Assembly (NCBI GenBank): GCA_024399015.1
Contig: JAKSIC010000031.1
Span: 1 to 32,546, forward strand
Source: Fibrobacter sp.
GTDB taxonomy: Bacteria; Fibrobacterota; Fibrobacteria; Fibrobacterales; Fibrobacteraceae
DNA: 32,546 nucleotides
Direction of reading: 5' to 3'
Shown here in pieces: positions 17,185 through 32,546 of this stretch. Under the pieces are notes generated by a model, which saw only the letters and a program-made list of their open reading frames with translations, did not search any database and was not told the DNA's origin. The position numbers and the translations under genes are program-made. Position 1 is the stretch's first letter. Each line of letters starts with the position of its first letter.

Positions 17185-18048
17185 ATGGCTGAACAGAGAA
17201 AACAGAAAAAAGTCTTCGAATACATGGATTACCGTGCATTCTTGAAGGACTATTATAACCAGAAAAAGGAGGCAAATTCTGCCTTCTCTCTGCGTGTTTT
17301 CTCCGATAAGATCGGTTTCAAGGCAAAGGATTTCATTAGCCGCGTCATGAACGGCGAAAAGAACCTTTCCACCCAGAGCATTCCGAAAGTCGCTTCCGGA
17401 CTTCGCCTGGGCAAGCACGAAACCGAATTTTTCATCAGCCTCGTTGAATTTAACCAAGCCGAGACAACGGAAGAACGTGACGAAGCCTTCAACAAGATGC
17501 AGGCCGTTCTCAAGGTTGTCCGCTTTGCCGAAAAGCAGCATCTGCTGGGCCACGCCCAGTACATGGTCTACTCTCACCCCCGCCACCTGTTCATCAGAAG
17601 CCTTATCGGCATGTTCGGCTTCAACGGGGACTACGCCACCTTGGCAAAGCAAGTCCACCCCAGCATCACTGTCGATGAAGCCAAGCAGTCTGTAAAGCTC
17701 TTGGAAGAATGCCAGTTGATCAAGAAGGGCGAAGACGGCAATTACGTTTTAAGTGAAAATGCAATCACCACCGGTGATCGCACTTCCAAGCTGGCCCTCC
17801 GCGGATACCATCAGAAGTGCCTGAAGATGGGCGCCGACTCCATTGACCGCGACCCGCCCAGCAAACGTCATATCTCGGGCCTCACCCTGGGCATCAGCCA
17901 GGAAGGCTATGACCGCATCGTGGAACGAATCAATGCATTCCGCAAGGAAATCGCCCTCATTGCCGAAGAAGACGAAGGCAGCGACAAGGTTTTCCAGATG
18001 GAATTCGCCATGTTCCAGGTGGGCGGAAAAAACGACAAAAGCACCTAG
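17185..18048 (+). CDS. TIGR02147 (DUF4423) family putative transcriptional regulator
   Basis: The 287-residue protein matches the family greatly expanded in Fibrobacter: an N-terminal FEYMDYRAFLKDYYNQKK, a helix-turn-helix-like region (about 32-75, FSDKIGFKAKDFISRVMNGEKNLS), the FFISLVEFNQAET segment and the C-terminal winged-helix-like part (VKLLEECQLIKKGEDGNYVLSE). The end (DKVFQMEFAMFQV) is also typical. The family is presumed to regulate nearby genes, but its mechanism is not established. Here the divergent neighbour is the secreted pectate lyase, so control of that gene is a reasonable inference. Only weak AGGG precedes the ATG. Confidence 0.9.
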   Translation: MAEQRKQKKVFEYMDYRAFLKDYYNQKKEANSAFSLRVFSDKIGFKAKDFISRVMNGEKNLSTQSIPKVASGLRLGKHETEFFISLVEFNQAETTEERDEAFNKMQAVLKVVRFAEKQHLLGHAQYMVYSHPRHLFIRSLIGMFGFNGDYATLAKQVHPSITVDEAKQSVKLLEECQLIKKGEDGNYVLSENAITTGDRTSKLALRGYHQKCLKMGADSIDRDPPSKRHISGLTLGISQEGYDRIVERINAFRKEIALIAEEDEGSDKVFQMEFAMFQVGGKNDKST

Positions 18049-18140: not shown

Positions 18141-18869
18141 TTACGTCGGATTATCGCATTTCTTGAGTTTATCTTCCAATTCCTTAGCAGCCTCTTCATG
18201 AGCCTTCTCGGAACGGATTTTGTTATCAAGTATCTTGGCTTCGTATTCAGGACTCATGATTACAGAGCCATCGCTGCAGTTGGCCACCCACTTGTCGTAT
18301 TCATAAGGCATAGGGGTTCCGTACATGCAAGCCATGTCATCAAGTTCCAGTTCCATTTTTTCAAGGCACCTGATTTTCTCTGCCGAGAATAACTTGGCCT
18401 CATCGCTTTTCAGCATGTTCTGAATTTTCAACAACATGTCGGATTCAGCCTTGCTCTGCCCTTGCTGTTCCGGAGTAGTCCAAGACTCAACGTAAGCACC
18501 TACGCTTTGGATGTCGCCATGACCATCGCAGACATCCATGGCAGACAAGGCCGCCCCTAGGGAGTCATTAGGAGTAAGCGATTTTTCCTCCGAAGAGGAA
18601 GACGTTTCTTCAGAAGATGAACTGAAAGCCGGTTCAATGCCATATACGGTTGCGCTCATAGGAGGAATTCGTTCGTCACTGGAGCTGGACCTCACCTCGG
18701 AACTAGACGAGCTTGCGGCCGACGAACCGGGTTCACTCGAAGAACCCGGCTCTACGGAGGAACTAGTATCTGGGGTCACCACCGGAGATACCGAATTGTC
18801 GTTACAGCCGACCCAACAGAAGGACGCTGCGGCAAAGAATATCCTTGCCACTAATTTTTGAATCTTCAT
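18141..18869 (-). CDS. Ser-rich lipoprotein of the rSAM/lipoprotein operon
   Basis: The 242-residue protein has a lipoprotein signal ending WVGC (lipidated Cys22), a long Ser/Glu-rich linker (about 30-95) and a helical C-terminal part. It carries two Tyr-Gly motifs: YGIEP (76-80) and CMYGTPMPY (181-189, codons 18303-18329). The second closely resembles the YGTP.A.Y motif of lipoproteins that accompany TIGR04133 radical SAM enzymes in Bacteroidetes. Six further Cys lie outside the signal region. AAAGGAG (18875-18881) gives a strong ribosome binding site. It is the last gene of the operon, 23 bases after the radical SAM gene. Being a substrate of that enzyme is inferred from motif and position. 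Confidence 0.8.
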   Translation of the reverse strand: MKIQKLVARIFFAAASFCWVGCNDNSVSPVVTPDTSSSVEPGSSSEPGSSAASSSSSEVRSSSSDERIPPMSATVYGIEPAFSSSSEETSSSSEEKSLTPNDSLGAALSAMDVCDGHGDIQSVGAYVESWTTPEQQGQSKAESDMLLKIQNMLKSDEAKLFSAEKIRCLEKMELELDDMACMYGTPMPYEYDKWVANCSDGSVIMSPEYEAKILDNKIRSEKAHEEAAKELEDKLKKCDNPT

Positions 18870-18892
18870 TTTTTCTCCTTTAGGCCAAAAAT

Positions 18893-19999
18893 CTACTTTG
18901 CCTGTTTTGCAGCCTCACGTTCCATGTCAATAGCATGCTGCAGGCGTTTTACATGGCAGTACATCAGTTCGCCGCTCTTTTCATCACGGAGATGAAGGCT
19001 GGAACCTTCGCAGTAGCGCCAGTACTTGCATTTCTTGCAATCGCCAGTGCGAGTCCAGCTGCGGTCACGCATAATCTGGTAACGGTTCTGCCAAACGTCC
19101 CACAGGTCATCCTTGTAGATGTTACCCTGGATGTAGTCACCGCGAAGGCTGGGGCAGGCGGAAATATCGCCATTGGCAAGCACAGAACTGACGTTTACGC
19201 CGGCACGGCAGAAGAAGGGATAATTGCGGGCTTCCTTTTCGTAGCTGCCCAGGAACCCTTCGCAACCATAGTTGACATTGATTCTGCCTTGCATCTTGGT
19301 TTCGCGGATAAAGTCAAAGACCTGCTTGAACTCGTTATCCGGCAACTTGAAGATGGGATTGTTGGCGGCGCGTCCCTTGGGGAACACCGTTGCAATACGC
19401 CAACGCTTTACGCCAATGGCCGTAAGCAACTCGCGGATTTCAGGAAGTTCCGGAAGGTTTTCGCGGTTGACGCAAGTCATCACGTCAAAGGTAAGGCCCG
19501 GAGTATTGGCGGCCATCTTGATGGCACGCAGTGCATTGTCAAAGCTGAATTCAGAACCGCGGAAATGATTATGGCTATCATGAAGACCGTCAAGGCTAAT
19601 GGTCAGGCTGCGAAGGCCAGCCTCAAGCAAGGACTTGTACTTTTCTGGACTCATGGCAAGCGCATTGGAAACCATGCCCCAGGGGTAACCACGTTTCTTG
19701 ATTTCCTTACCGCATTCCACAAGGTCCGGGCGCATCAGCGGTTCACCGCCAGTAATCACTACCATGAAATGCTTGGGGTCGATATGAGGAGCCAGGGAAT
19801 CCAGCACCTTCATAAAATCTTCGCGGGGCATATCGGGAATAGCGTCCTTCATGCAGTCGCTACCGCAGTGAAGGCAGTGCAAATTGCAGCGCAAAGTACA
19901 TTCCCAGAAGAAATAAGTCAGCGGGTGGGTTGCCACTTCGTTATGACGGTAATGACGATAAAATTCAAGAGCGAGACGCTTTTTAAGATTCAAATGCAT
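18893..19999 (-). CDS. Radical SAM/SPASM enzyme of the rSAM/lipoprotein system (TIGR04133-like)
   Basis: The 368-residue enzyme has the radical SAM cluster motif CX3CX2C at Cys38/Cys42/Cys45 within WECTLRCNLHCLHCGSDC, GGEP at 84-87 and a C-terminal SPASM domain with Cys264, Cys282, Cys321, Cys324, Cys330 and Cys348, which should bind auxiliary Fe-S clusters. The N-terminal half closely matches Bacteroidetes enzymes of the rSAM/lipoprotein system (DMP.EDF.KVLDS..PH, VITGGEPLMR.DL, RGYPWGMV.N). SPASM enzymes typically modify peptides or proteins. The ATG at 19999 is 5 bases after the upstream lipoprotein stop and has AGGA about 11 bases upstream, so they are co-transcribed. The chemistry and substrate are unproven. 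Confidence 0.92.
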   Translation of the reverse strand: MHLNLKKRLALEFYRHYRHNEVATHPLTYFFWECTLRCNLHCLHCGSDCMKDAIPDMPREDFMKVLDSLAPHIDPKHFMVVITGGEPLMRPDLVECGKEIKKRGYPWGMVSNALAMSPEKYKSLLEAGLRSLTISLDGLHDSHNHFRGSEFSFDNALRAIKMAANTPGLTFDVMTCVNRENLPELPEIRELLTAIGVKRWRIATVFPKGRAANNPIFKLPDNEFKQVFDFIRETKMQGRINVNYGCEGFLGSYEKEARNYPFFCRAGVNVSSVLANGDISACPSLRGDYIQGNIYKDDLWDVWQNRYQIMRDRSWTRTGDCKKCKYWRYCEGSSLHLRDEKSGELMYCHVKRLQHAIDMEREAAKQAK

Positions 20000-20004
20000 C
20001 GTAT

Positions 20005-20301
20005 TTATTCCTGACCAGGGTTTTCATTTGAGACACTTTCATCATCGCAAGTTCCATTGAACACGCAAGGCGGTCCATAGAGTTCCGTCTGTTCAACAAT
20101 CGTCGAATCCACAATCAAAGGATCGTTAGGATCAAAAACTACTCCATAATCCGGCATTATTTCACAACCATTACCATCACAGCCACAAGGGCCGCAGCCG
20201 TACGCAGGCATCGGATTCGAGGCGGCCCCATTTTCGCAGCCAGCCCACATAGTGGCAAACAGAGCCAGCAATATCTTTTTCCAGTGATTACGAATAGCCA
20301 T
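20005..20301 (-). CDS. Small Cys-rich lipoprotein B, candidate radical SAM substrate
   Basis: The 98-residue protein begins with a lipoprotein signal (KKILLALFATMWAGC, lipidated Cys22). The mature part has YGCGPCGC (34-41, codons 20179-20202) and YGPPCVFNGTC (75-85, codons 20047-20079), separated by an acidic linker. It is a clear paralogue of the next gene upstream: same signal sequence and both Cys motifs, different linker. AGGAGG lies just before the start. With the radical SAM gene 5 bases downstream, it is the most likely substrate by position. It resembles natural-product precursors in being small and Cys-rich, but it is lipid-anchored. Confidence 0.82.
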   Translation of the reverse strand: MAIRNHWKKILLALFATMWAGCENGAASNPMPAYGCGPCGCDGNGCEIMPDYGVVFDPNDPLIVDSTIVEQTELYGPPCVFNGTCDDESVSNENPGQE

Positions 20302-20332
20302 AATTTAGCCTCCTACGCCAAGTTAATCAAAA

Positions 20333-20650
20333 TTACTTTTTCTCTTCTTTACCTAAATCGCACGACCCATCAAAATAACAGGGCGGACCATACACAGCAA
20401 CAGGAACCTCATACTCCTCAGGTTGTTCAACGACTGTGCCCGCAGCAGGTTCCCCAACAACGACAGAATCCACGACAACGGAGTCCTGAGGCAACGGATC
20501 AGTAGAAGGCTCTTCGCACGCTTCGCAACCACAAGGCGGACAACCATATAGATCTCCGCCCCCGATATCAACCTCGGTTTCGGTACAACCCGACCACACA
20601 CAGGCAAACAGGGCTAACAAGATCCTTTTCCAAAAATTGCGAACAACCAT
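20333..20650 (-). CDS. Small Cys-rich lipoprotein A, candidate radical SAM substrate
   Basis: This 105-residue protein is the first gene of the operon. It has a lipoprotein signal (KRILLALFACVWSGC, lipidated Cys22), YGCPPCGC at 35-42 (codons 20525-20548) followed by EAC, a Val/Pro/Glu-rich linker and YGPPCYFDGSC at 87-97 (codons 20360-20392). It is paralogous to lipoprotein B, 31 bases downstream; the Cys motifs are conserved while the linkers differ, so selection seems to act on the motifs. AGGAGG sits about 8 bases before the ATG. The mature protein has seven Cys, including the lipidated one. The function is unknown. Confidence 0.82.
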   Translation of the reverse strand: MVVRNFWKRILLALFACVWSGCTETEVDIGGGDLYGCPPCGCEACEEPSTDPLPQDSVVVDSVVVGEPAAGTVVEQPEEYEVPVAVYGPPCYFDGSCDLGKEEKK

Positions 20651-20768
20651 AATTAAGTCCTCCTTTTTTCAGAAATTAGATTTTTTCTTTAGAGGCCGAA
20701 ATGCAAAAACTTACTAAAAATGCAGTTTTTCAAAAAAAAACGTCTACAATCAAATTTCAAGTCATTTT

Positions 20769-20798
20769 ATGATACGAAAAACAGCCTATATGCAACAA
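20769..20798 (-). promoter_or_regulatory. Candidate promoter of the rSAM/lipoprotein operon
   Basis: On the minus strand TTGTTG (20798-20793) and TATCAT (20774-20769) are separated by 18 bases, upstream of lipoprotein A, with a leader of roughly 110 bases. The match is moderate. The 176-base gap between 20650 and 20827 holds no gene. Confidence 0.3.
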
Positions 20799-20826
20799 AG
20801 GTTGTTTCTAAAAGACAATCCAAATT

Positions 20827-22788
20827 CTAGCGCAGGTTGATCCTTTGTGTTCCAAGAATGCGGGAGCCCTCGGAAACACGGACCACAGCCATTCCCAAAT
20901 GAGAAAGGCGATCCAGGTTCATTGAAAATTCACCACCTTCAAAGAAACTTCTAGAAATAAGGTTTCCCTGAAGGTCGAAAATATCTACGCGCTTAATGCC
21001 CGGGTCACGGGACTCAATTTCAAGAACTGAACAATTTACAAACAAGCGAAGATTTTGCACATCGGCAACAACAGAAGCCAGGGCATCAGTTGCAGAAGAG
21101 CTTGACGATAAGGAACTGCTCGAAGAAACCGGCGCAGAACTACTTGAAACAACTGCGACAGGAACCTTACAAGTCGTCACCTTCACACCATTTTTAGTAG
21201 TAAAACAGACGTCCGAATTTTCTTCCATAATACCTGAAAAACCTATCCCCAAATCTTGTCCCGACCAGGATTTAAACCCGGTAAAACTCGTGATCTTCTG
21301 GTAACCCGGGAAAGGGTCATCCTTTAGGTGCTGCGTTTCAAAACCATCGTAGAAACTCGTCACCTTTAAGTTACCAGCCTCCACCACATCAATTCGCTGG
21401 TGGTTTTCGTAATCGTTCAAGGAGTCGCTAATCCAGGAAAACCTATTGTAGTCAATATGCCAGATTAGCATTCCATGCCCCGGAAGACTATCGTCCCACC
21501 GTCCGTTCCTTTGACGATTCTCCACAATGAACCATTCATCCTCCTTTCCAGGAACCGCAATCTTGTAGGCCTTATTGGATTCAGACAGAGGTTCCAAGGA
21601 AACAATATCTGCAGAGGAGTCCAAAGCCTCGTAATCAAGCCATCCCATAAAATTTCGTTCAAAAGCACTATAGCCGGCAGGCTTCTTACCTCCGCCGTTA
21701 TACATGCCTGTACCCATCACGTCCCAAGCGTGTACTCCAGGCGCCTGATACTGAGAATTCTCGTATTTATAGTAGCACTCATCTCTCCAGACACAATAAT
21801 GATCCTGAAGTCCCATGGTATGACCGAACTCATGGATAAATGTAGCGAACAGGTCCGTTTCCTGGCTGATCATCAGATAGTTGCTAAATTTTTTTCCATT
21901 GCCCGCATCAATTTTACCGCAGGCGTTATAGACAAAATTGAAACCAAATCCACTAAGTCCCGAGGACTTTTCTGTACCTGCATAAAGGAACCCGGTCGCA
22001 TCAATGTCACCATCACCATCAGAATCATAGAGCGATGCATCAAAATTCGGGTACTTTGTCTTGAGCACCTTGATGGCCTCAACCCCCAGTTTATAGCGGG
22101 TATCGGGCGAGCCCTCAGGAGTCTTAAATTCAGAAGCCTGATAGTTGATGGACACAGAATAGATGTCAAATATAGGGACAAACTTTTCTCCCGACTGGTC
22201 AGCGAAATAGTCCCTGACAGAGCCTACATAACCGTCCTTGGAATATCCCTGCTTATTAAAGATGTCACTAACTACAGAGGAGTCCCGGTTGTATTCACCA
22301 CGGCCCTGCACCAAAATCACAGGAAAACGGTTGGTGCCAATCCCGAATTTTTCAGAAGCAGGCAGCTTCATCAATGCTCCGGCCCGGGATTTCGGCATAG
22401 CCCATGGCGCTGCCCCCGATTTTTCCATTCTGGGGCGCTTTAGCGGATCCGGGTGACGCTTACGGTGATTCTCCAAAAGCTTTCGGGAGTCAAGACTTTC
22501 AAGAAATTTCTTGTCTGCAACGGAGCGATGAGCCAAGTCCTTAGCCTTGATTCCAGAGGACACGCCCTCTTCATTGGCGTAATAATACACTCTCAAGGAG
22601 TCGGAAACCACGAGGTAGCCATCAATGGTCTGGGTGCGATGGTAATGTTCATCACCAGTTTTGCGAAGCGTTACAGAATCCCCCTGATTATCATACACGT
22701 ATGGGGTCGGATTCATCGGATAGGCAAAAGCCTCCGTCACAAAGAGTCCCGCCAAAATCAGCGGGCACAAAACAAACCTCAATCGCAT
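20827..22788 (-). CDS. Secreted M6-family metalloprotease with C-terminal sorting-type domain
   Basis: The 653-residue protein has a signal peptide (cleavage after FVTEAFA, ~22), an N-terminal propeptide-like region and a zinc protease domain with HEFGHTMGLQDH at 319-330 (His319, Glu320, His323; Asp329 extends the site) and the downstream WDVMGTGMYNGGG Met-turn, as in the immune inhibitor A (M6) family. A Ser-rich linker near 550-565 leads to a C-terminal beta domain (VDIFDLQGNLISR...RINLR) resembling type IX sorting domains. AAGGAG at 22797-22802 precedes the ATG. It is divergent from the second TIGR02147 regulator. The likely role is extracellular or surface proteolysis. Confidence 0.9.
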   Translation of the reverse strand: MRLRFVLCPLILAGLFVTEAFAYPMNPTPYVYDNQGDSVTLRKTGDEHYHRTQTIDGYLVVSDSLRVYYYANEEGVSSGIKAKDLAHRSVADKKFLESLDSRKLLENHRKRHPDPLKRPRMEKSGAAPWAMPKSRAGALMKLPASEKFGIGTNRFPVILVQGRGEYNRDSSVVSDIFNKQGYSKDGYVGSVRDYFADQSGEKFVPIFDIYSVSINYQASEFKTPEGSPDTRYKLGVEAIKVLKTKYPNFDASLYDSDGDGDIDATGFLYAGTEKSSGLSGFGFNFVYNACGKIDAGNGKKFSNYLMISQETDLFATFIHEFGHTMGLQDHYCVWRDECYYKYENSQYQAPGVHAWDVMGTGMYNGGGKKPAGYSAFERNFMGWLDYEALDSSADIVSLEPLSESNKAYKIAVPGKEDEWFIVENRQRNGRWDDSLPGHGMLIWHIDYNRFSWISDSLNDYENHQRIDVVEAGNLKVTSFYDGFETQHLKDDPFPGYQKITSFTGFKSWSGQDLGIGFSGIMEENSDVCFTTKNGVKVTTCKVPVAVVSSSSAPVSSSSSLSSSSSATDALASVVADVQNLRLFVNCSVLEIESRDPGIKRVDIFDLQGNLISRSFFEGGEFSMNLDRLSHLGMAVVRVSEGSRILGTQRINLR

Positions 22789-22941: not shown

Positions 22942-23778
22942 ATGGAAAAGTACATTGACATCTACCAGTTTACGCACTTCCGTAAATACCTGGAAGAATA
23001 CCAGGCCGCCCGCGTCAAGGCCGAGCCCGGTTTTACCCGTACAGAAATTTGCAACCTTCTGGGCATGGAAAAGAGCCGCAGCTACTTTGCCGACGTGCTC
23101 CGCGGAAAGAAGGTGAGCCCCCGCATGGTGGCCAAGTTCATCGAGCTCTGCAATCTGGAAAAGAAGGAAGCCAAGTACTTTGAAGTCATGGTGAAAGTGG
23201 ACCAGGCCAAGACCGATGCCATCCGCAAGGCCGCCATGGAAGAACTTCTGCAGATGCATCCGAACCCGCAGAACATCCTGAATACCGACGCCTACGAATA
23301 TTACAATCACTGGTATAACAGCGCCCTCTTCGCCATCCTTGATGCCATGGACGTAGACGACGACTTGACTCCCGTACAAAAGAGAATTTTCCCGAAGGTC
23401 ACCTTGGGCAAGCTGAAAGAAAGCCTGGACCTTCTGCAGCGCTTGGGCCTTGCCCGCAAGAACGAGGAAGGCTTCTGGAAGCCCACCCAGGAATCCATTT
23501 CCAGCGGACCCTACAACAACGCGGAGCTGATCAAGCAGTATCAGCTGCAGTGCTTCGAGCTTTCCAAGCAGGCACTGATTACGCCGCCCAAGGCTCCGGC
23601 CATCATGAGCACTTTGACCTTTAGCGCTTCTAGCAACGCCTACAAGGAGCTGGAAGCCGCCGTGCAGGAATTCAAGGCCAAGGCCCGCAGCATTATCGCC
23701 GGCGACAAGAACAAGGCCAACGGCGTTTATCAAATGAACCTTCACCTGTTTTCCAACCTGGATACGGAGGGCAAATAA
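22942..23778 (+). CDS. TIGR02147 (DUF4423) family putative transcriptional regulator
   Basis: This 278-residue protein is a second member of the Fibrobacter-expanded family: N-terminal IYQFTHFRKYLEEYQ, a helix-turn-helix-like part (TRTEICNLLGMEKSRSYFADVLRGKK, about 32-57), KYFEVMVKVDQAKT, the LGKLKESLDLLQRLGLARKNEEGFW winged-helix-like segment and the typical ending GVYQMNLHLFSNL. No ribosome binding site is visible before the ATG, and the candidate -10 box leaves almost no leader, so the transcript may be leaderless. Its stop overlaps the start of the next lipoprotein gene (TAATG), which indicates coupled translation. The divergent M6 protease may be a second target. Confidence 0.9.
   Translation: MEKYIDIYQFTHFRKYLEEYQAARVKAEPGFTRTEICNLLGMEKSRSYFADVLRGKKVSPRMVAKFIELCNLEKKEAKYFEVMVKVDQAKTDAIRKAAMEELLQMHPNPQNILNTDAYEYYNHWYNSALFAILDAMDVDDDLTPVQKRIFPKVTLGKLKESLDLLQRLGLARKNEEGFWKPTQESISSGPYNNAELIKQYQLQCFELSKQALITPPKAPAIMSTLTFSASSNAYKELEAAVQEFKAKARSIIAGDKNKANGVYQMNLHLFSNLDTEGK
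23766..23770 (+). promoter_or_regulatory. Ribosome binding site deciding the lipoprotein start
   Basis: GGAGG lies 7 bases before the ATG at 23778 and inside the end of the regulator gene. It supports initiation at 23778, upstream of the heptamer repeat, rather than at the later in-frame ATG at 23811. Confidence 0.6.
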
Positions 23779-31866: not shown

Positions 31867-32330
31867 TGAATATTGAAATAGCAGCAATTTGTGACGCAGC
31901 TACAGCCGATGGCATGGGCGGTCGTTTGAACATTCTTGGCGCCTTTGATCGTGTATTCGCCAAATTCCCGCTGGTCATTCCCCAGTGCTCGGCAGCTTTC
32001 CGAATTCGCTATCAGCGTGCTGAAGCTGGCGTCCATGAATTGCAGCTCACCATCGAAGACGTCTGCGGCAAGCCCATCGTTCCGCCGATGAATACAAAGC
32101 TTCCCCTGCAGGAAGTGGCCCAAGGCTTTGACACCGCAGCAGTGAATCTGGTCTTGAACTTGCAGCGTCTGCAGATCGCCCGTCCGGACAAGTACATTGT
32201 CCGCCTGGCAATCGACCAGGAAGAACTCATCAGCCTCCCGCTTTACATGCTGGAAGCTCCCCAGCATATGCCGGGCGGCCCTGTCGCCGAAGGCGAGCAG
32301 TCTCTGGGCCCCGTAGACGGCAACGCCTAA
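31866..32330 (+). CDS. DUF6941-like protein
   Basis: The 154-residue protein starts MNIEIAAICDAATADGMGGRLNILGAFDRVF, closely resembling DUF6941 proteins (start CDAA...GGKLNILGAFD followed by PQC). It has no signal peptide or membrane segment and should be cytoplasmic, with a beta-sandwich-like strand pattern. The function is unknown. The ATG overlaps the stop of the giant lipoprotein gene (TAATG), so translation is probably coupled. GAGGA about 8-12 bases upstream can serve as ribosome binding site. Its last three codons lie inside the first unit of the 75-bp tandem repeat, so the C-terminal Asn-Ala-stop may come from the repeat. Confidence 0.8.
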   Translation: MNIEIAAICDAATADGMGGRLNILGAFDRVFAKFPLVIPQCSAAFRIRYQRAEAGVHELQLTIEDVCGKPIVPPMNTKLPLQEVAQGFDTAAVNLVLNLQRLQIARPDKYIVRLAIDQEELISLPLYMLEAPQHMPGGPVAEGEQSLGPVDGNA

Positions 32331-32546
32331 GAGCCGAGAGTCGCGCCGAACTTGTTCAGGCATGACCGAGGCGACAGAGGCGAGCGCCGCAGACGCAACG
32401 CCTAAGAGCCGAGAGTCGCGCCGAACTTGTTCAGGCATGACCGAGGCGACAGAGGCGAGCGCCGCAGACGCAACGCCTAAGAGCCGAGAGTCGCGCCGAA
32501 CTTGTTCAGGCATGACCGAGGCGACAGAGGCGAGCGCCGCAGACGC
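32322..32546. repeat. 75-bp direct tandem repeat, three exact copies
   Basis: Units at 32322-32396, 32397-32471 and 32472-32546 are identical by eye. Each contains GGCGAGCGCC (a small hairpin) and TTCAGGCATGACCGAGGCG. Because 75 is divisible by 3, a plus-strand and a minus-strand frame stay open through the array, each with a 25-residue period; the minus-strand frame repeats MPEQVRRDSRLLGVA. I do not regard either as a gene. The window ends exactly with the third unit, so the real copy number is unknown. Confidence 0.95.

Follow-up and report, generated by a model that had tools for sequence, protein, structure and literature searches.

The enzyme-lipoprotein pair TIGR04133/TIGR04134 is already known by name from NCBIfam. 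Ribosomally made beta-amino acid peptides and proteins are the subject of Scott et al. (Chem, 2022), a study that may already include TIGR04133. In the literature library searched, no paper mentions TIGR04133, TIGR04134 or the lipoprotein pair by name. The hallmark of a splicease at YG is the loss of 135.07 Da (C8H9NO). The splicease PlpXY naturally acts at MYG and LYG, and the tags that work with it include PIRPLYGLPI and ones of the AVAAGYGVVFP type (PMC10533398, PMC11002830, PMC10373908). Spliceotides have been reported as protease inhibitors (PMC10373908, PMC11117315).

Here we analyzed a stretch of 32,546 nucleotides (the window) from a 3.34-Mb Fibrobacter genome with a completeness of 99.85%, in which a radical SAM/SPASM enzyme of the TIGR04133 family is encoded among lipoproteins that carry repeated YG sites. 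Among the public records of the collection, the closest is a Fibrobacter metagenome-assembled genome from horse faeces, whose enzyme is identical or nearly so.

The operon, its enzyme and its lipoproteins

Four genes at window positions 18141-20650, all on the minus strand, encode lipoprotein A, lipoprotein B, the radical SAM/SPASM enzyme and lipoprotein C, with intergenic gaps of 31 bases (A-B), 5 bases (B-enzyme) and 23 bases (enzyme-C). This is the layout that the initial annotation had described, and a check of the open reading frames confirmed all of it:

20651-20826, no strand: gap upstream of the operon, the expected place of a promoter, 176 bases (promoter search)
20333-20650, minus strand: lipoprotein A, candidate substrate, 105 aa (ORF; homologues in many Fibrobacter operons)
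20005-20301, minus strand: lipoprotein B, candidate substrate, 98 aa (ORF; homologues)
18893-19999, minus strand: radical SAM/SPASM enzyme, 368 aa, TIGR04133 (TIGR04133, PF04055, PF13186; alignments)
18141-18869, minus strand: lipoprotein C, candidate substrate, 242 aa (ORF; domain homologues; AlphaFold2 model)

No consensus promoter stood out in the 176-base gap, where matches were at shuffle level, and an Rfam search of the whole window gave no match. The operon holds the enzyme and the lipoproteins only, with no PlpY-like recognition (RRE) protein among its genes. Directly upstream on the same strand lies a gene for an M6 metalloprotease (20827-22788), whose counterpart at one related locus (L035) is only 45% identical, compared to 93% for the flanking TIGR02147 gene. 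Two proteins of the TIGR02147 family, a paralogous family in Fibrobacter, are encoded on either side of the region, both on the plus strand (17185-18048 and 22942-23778), and the contig ends in a 75-base tandem repeat (window 32311-32546; 3.1 copies, 98% matches).

Upon searching the enzyme against TIGR04133 (rSAM_w_lipo), we obtained 603.2 bits with a cut-off of 425, over positions 1-350 of the 350 in the model; it is thus a member, which bears out the family assignment made at first reading. The domain matches are PF04055 (73 bits) and PF13186 (35 bits), the radical SAM cluster motif is CNLHCLHC (C37, C41 and C44), and the SPASM domain has C320, C323 and C329, with the usual fourth Cys missing (CKKCKYWRYCEGSS). 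Every aligned TIGR04133 sequence has an S or N after CxxCxxxxxC, at a position that is Cys in TIGR04103, GDL and similar enzymes. Against TIGR04103, the model for the PlpX splicease, the window enzyme scored 140.4 bits with a cut-off of 725 and is not a member. A close kinship between the two families was rejected on profile scores, in which TIGR04133 stands about equally near to the TIGR04103, TIGR04053 and NirJ2 models, with AhbD likewise not separated, so that TIGR04103 is no nearer than several other SPASM families. Because the profile scores do not set TIGR04133 with TIGR04103, the ancestry of the enzyme does not decide its chemistry. In the AlphaFold2 model, the barrel is fair and the SPASM region has a pLDDT below 50, and therefore we drew no active-site reading from it; its fold matches are ordinary radical SAM maturases, e.g., SkfB, SuiB and PqqE. 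TIGR04133 was found above its cut-off in 89 of the 168 Fibrobacterota genomes searched, and occurs in Bacteroidota and Treponema as well.

All three lipoproteins have their candidate lipidated Cys at residue 22, as had been noted before, with VWSG, MWAG and CWVG directly preceding the Cys in A, B and C, respectively (by inspection and a lipobox search). In lipoprotein A, the signal peptide MVVRNFWKRILLALFACVWSG precedes C22 and the YG sites are GDLYGCPP (YGCPPC) and VAVYGPPC. Lipoprotein B has the signal peptide MAIRNHWKKILLALFATMWAG before C22 and three YG sites, MPAYGCGP (YGCGPC), MPDYGVVF (MPDYGVVFDP) and TELYGPPC. The six YG motifs named by the initial annotation are thus all present, but its count was incomplete: the third site of lipoprotein B, MPDYGVVFDP, had been overlooked, bringing the total to seven. 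In lipoprotein C, the signal peptide (ending FCWVG before C22) is followed by a Ser-rich linker with ATVYGIEP and then by a folded domain, modeled confidently by AlphaFold2 over residues 99-235, in which CMYGTPMP is predicted to lie in a loop that joins a helix and a strand. A fold search against the PDB gave no match for lipoprotein C at E<=0.001, and no known inhibitor fold. Within the family of this protein, where most members share 22-31% identity, few residues are invariant, and these include Y182 and G183.

We rejected the window lipoproteins as members of TIGR04134 (lipo_with_rSAM), as a search with that profile gave no match for A, B or C at E<=1. The best place for it in the whole genome lies away from the operon and reaches 20.3 bits, with a cut-off of 39.8. 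The TIGR04134-type arrangement is nevertheless there: A, B and C each have a lipobox and a YG with Pro a few residues on, and they share an operon with a TIGR04133 enzyme. Profile and domain searches found no Nif11 or NHLP leader in the three proteins.

The XYG motif across lipoproteins and genomes

Of the 13 Tyr residues in the mature regions of A, B and C, seven precede Gly (binomial P about 2e-5), and across relatives the excess is far larger than in the window alone. We compared 112 dereplicated lipoproteins with an operon-like signal-peptide ending with 211 other lipobox ORFs from the same loci as controls. YG occurred in 107 of the 112 lipoproteins, at 302 sites compared to 60.9 expected, and in 78 of the 211 controls, at 150 sites compared to 105.3 expected. 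The 302 sites give the consensus [P/A]-[L/K/D/E]-Y-G-[V/I]-P, and a canonical [P/A]xYG[VILMPCAT] was present in 90 of the 112 lipoproteins versus 24 of the 211 controls (~11%). The residue X before YG was mostly L (144 of 302 sites), followed by K (43), D (27), E (24) and A (22). Pro at +3 was found at 114 of the 302 sites, so that in Fibrobacter it is no more than a preference. Of the YG.P motif proposed by the initial annotation, the YG is kept beside orthologous enzymes and an obligatory Pro is not; what stays fixed is XYG, preceded at -2 by P or A and followed by a small hydrophobic residue, and the motif is better described as XYG. That reading had itself named a lack of motif conservation in lipoproteins beside orthologous enzymes as evidence against it; with YG conserved there, the interpretation is not refuted.

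The partners of related enzymes extend this picture. In Fibrobacter, one to several lipoproteins lie around the TIGR04133 enzyme; they differ in length and domain content and have up to eight YG each. In Bacteroidota and Treponema, the loci show the pairing that the initial annotation had named for Bacteroidetes: beside the enzyme stands a TIGR04134-type lipoprotein that combines a carboxypeptidase-regulatory-like domain with a YGxP near the Cys. Several deep Fibrobacterota (L133, L136 and L145) have an exported partner that keeps the XYG but in which a sorting tail for type IX secretion often takes the place of the lipobox. A TIGR04133-like group below the cut-off (L122, L124 and L125; about 36% identical, 270 bits) is followed by a zinc-ribbon protein with IYGPPI, which suggests XYG modification of a protein that has no signal peptide. 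Thus, it is XYG that stays constant across partners, and neither lipidation nor domain. In other Fibrobacter (L146, L147 and L148), a likely multi-core substrate is encoded ahead of a TIGR04103-like enzyme, a protein in which KYGYP is repeated many times (up to about 20). A by-eye reading of this repeat protein as chagasin-like (I42) was dropped, as Pfam gave no support. The DUF1843 peptides associated with GDL enzymes (L118 and L121) have LYG or PYG near the N-terminus in three of six cases and YA or YM in the others. Taken from the sequences, YG is very probably the modification site of the enzyme.

A shared signal peptide and candidate substrates elsewhere in the genome

The lipoproteins have a signal peptide in common, KHWKK...FWxxC, in which K-H-W-K-K and an L occupy positions -17 to -10 before the Cys, a region outside the selection criterion. 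A profile of 16 such peptides (22 residues, carrying no YG information) was run on the whole genome of the window and gave four matches at E<0.003, namely lipoproteins A (E 1.9e-11) and B (9.4e-13) and two proteins on other contigs, far from the enzyme (L158, G000:C6:26099; L159, G000:C9:61833). Both have canonical YG sites, IALYGVQP and APLYGIVP in the former and MPDYGVPP in the latter. The second is apparently related to lipoprotein C. Among all 68 lipoproteins with the shared signal peptide (loci L156-L195), including ones far from any enzyme, 66 contain YG.

The enzyme and the signal peptide were found in the same four of 11 genera. Across 111 genomes of the family, both were present in 74 and neither in 30, with the enzyme alone in two and the signal peptide alone in five, four of the latter being incomplete genomes (Fisher P 1.2e-19, relatedness ignored). 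These data suggest a family of at least five surface-anchored candidate substrates in this genome, partly scattered, and it is very plausible that one enzyme serves several of them. Because of the profile matches, the co-occurrence and the presence of YG in 66 of 68 proteins, we infer that the signal peptide may serve as a recognition leader with the enzyme working in trans.

Candidate chemistry and comparison with known systems

We consider it about an even call that this is a multi-substrate lipoprotein-modifying system in which the TIGR04133 enzyme acts in a splicease-like manner. Before export, the enzyme would recognize its substrates in trans via KHWKK...FWxxC, the signal peptide doubling as a RiPP leader peptide, and would cut tyramine out at XYG, leaving alpha-keto-beta-amino acids; the modified proteins would then be exported, lipidated at Cys22 and displayed. 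The cell would bear electrophilic ketoamide sites with differing X (L, V, A, D and M here), which may offer proteases a reversible covalent inhibitor or bait whose P1 residue is X. The role, left as unknown by the initial annotation, is thereby sharpened to a candidate chemistry, tyramine excision. Because the YG motif matches a site where a known enzyme rewrites the protein backbone, the analysis suggests a cell coated with chemically reactive, perhaps protease-blocking proteins, and an anchored protease-inhibitor coat is the putative role that we favor. Protease inhibition is known from small spliceotides and not from proteins like the window lipoproteins.

The XYG sites expected of splicease substrates are there, seven in the window and 302 in the 112 related lipoproteins. 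In Nostoc, a TIGR04103 enzyme (853 bits with a cut-off of 725) has in front of it a Nif11 precursor that ends in GRGSIALYGLPPELF, its last residues being IALYGLPPELF; scored on the Fibrobacter matrix, this core and those of PlpA fell at the 84th-91st percentile of background YG sites, a moderate likeness that is not decisive. Our confidence in splicing is set at about even because this likeness is moderate and the profile scores do not tie TIGR04133 to TIGR04103. A serious if less favored reading is that the enzyme modifies YG by other radical SAM/SPASM chemistry, i.e., oxidation, decarboxylation or cleavage at the Tyr, a C-C crosslink from the Tyr to a neighbor, or epimerization. Every argument for YG as the site holds equally for it, and TIGR04133 is a separate family that scores about equally with TIGR04103, TIGR04053 and NirJ2 and lacks the SPASM Cys of TIGR04103. 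Yet the determinant reported for spliceases is XYG in which any X is allowed, and the residues at -1, +2 and +3 all vary, so that none of the neighbors of YG is conserved well enough for a crosslink partner. It is improbable that the lipoproteins are no substrates at all, with YG serving in binding or structure and the enzyme making something else: although in the lipoprotein C family YG belongs to a folded domain (AlphaFold2 model of lipoprotein C), it recurs in unrelated contexts (Ser-rich linkers and several domain types, in up to eight copies per lipoprotein, as well as type IX-tailed proteins and the zinc-ribbon protein beside a related enzyme), and the enzyme and the signal peptide are gained and lost together. 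A thioether of sactipeptide or ranthipeptide type, for which the cysteines of YGCPPC and YGPPC in lipoproteins A and B would provide the partner, is scarcely credible and was rejected, as Cys is not constant around YG, most sites having none in the first two or three positions past the G (26 of 302 sites at +2 and 15 of 302 at +4), and follows the G in neither EYGTPSADY nor EYGSPHANF, sites of Bacteroidota partners.

If splicing holds, XYG backbone splicing would be a routine modification of surface proteins, beyond small-peptide natural products; an export signal would double as a modification leader; and varied X would give ketoamides with different P1 residues. Such a system would reach across rumen and hindgut Fibrobacter and, via the TIGR04134 partners, human gut Bacteroidota, and it would give the long-standing orphan pair TIGR04133/TIGR04134 a concrete chemistry. 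The broadest form of this idea, genome-wide protein splicing in Fibrobacter and relatives with the shared lipoprotein signal peptide as the leader for a TIGR04133 splicease, we hold to be doubtful at present.

Of the described systems, the TIGR04133/TIGR04134 pair of Bacteroidota and Treponema has the same enzyme family and likewise a YG lipoprotein encoded beside the enzyme. The Fibrobacter locus differs in that its lipoproteins fall outside TIGR04134, that there are several candidate substrates instead of one, each with multiple YG, that Pro at +3 is optional, that KHWKK...FWxxC is conserved, and that more candidate substrates lie elsewhere in the genome. The GDL-motif radical SAM system (TIGR03913) with DUF1843 resembles it through an enzyme 47-48% identical to the Nostoc TIGR04103 protein and some peptides with LYG or PYG, whereas the DUF1843 peptides are small and cytosolic, and YG is not constant in them. 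The TIGR04103-like/KYGYP system shares a radical SAM/SPASM enzyme beside a protein of many XYG, but its enzyme is longer, with a C-terminal extension, and its substrate lacks a signal peptide and has mainly Lys as X. PlpXY (TIGR04103 with a Nif11/NHLP precursor) likewise combines a radical SAM/SPASM enzyme with substrates of several XYG sites each, in contexts (ALYGLPP, PLYGLP and AxYGVV) like those of Fibrobacter; in contrast, the window enzyme belongs to another family and works beside no PlpY-like protein, and its candidate substrates bear a Sec/lipoprotein signal peptide in place of a Nif11 leader, so that the product would stay on the cell as a lipoprotein. Compared to all of these, what appears to be new here is a multi-substrate, partly scattered Fibrobacter system, a signal peptide as the shared leader, and the splicease hypothesis for lipoproteins.
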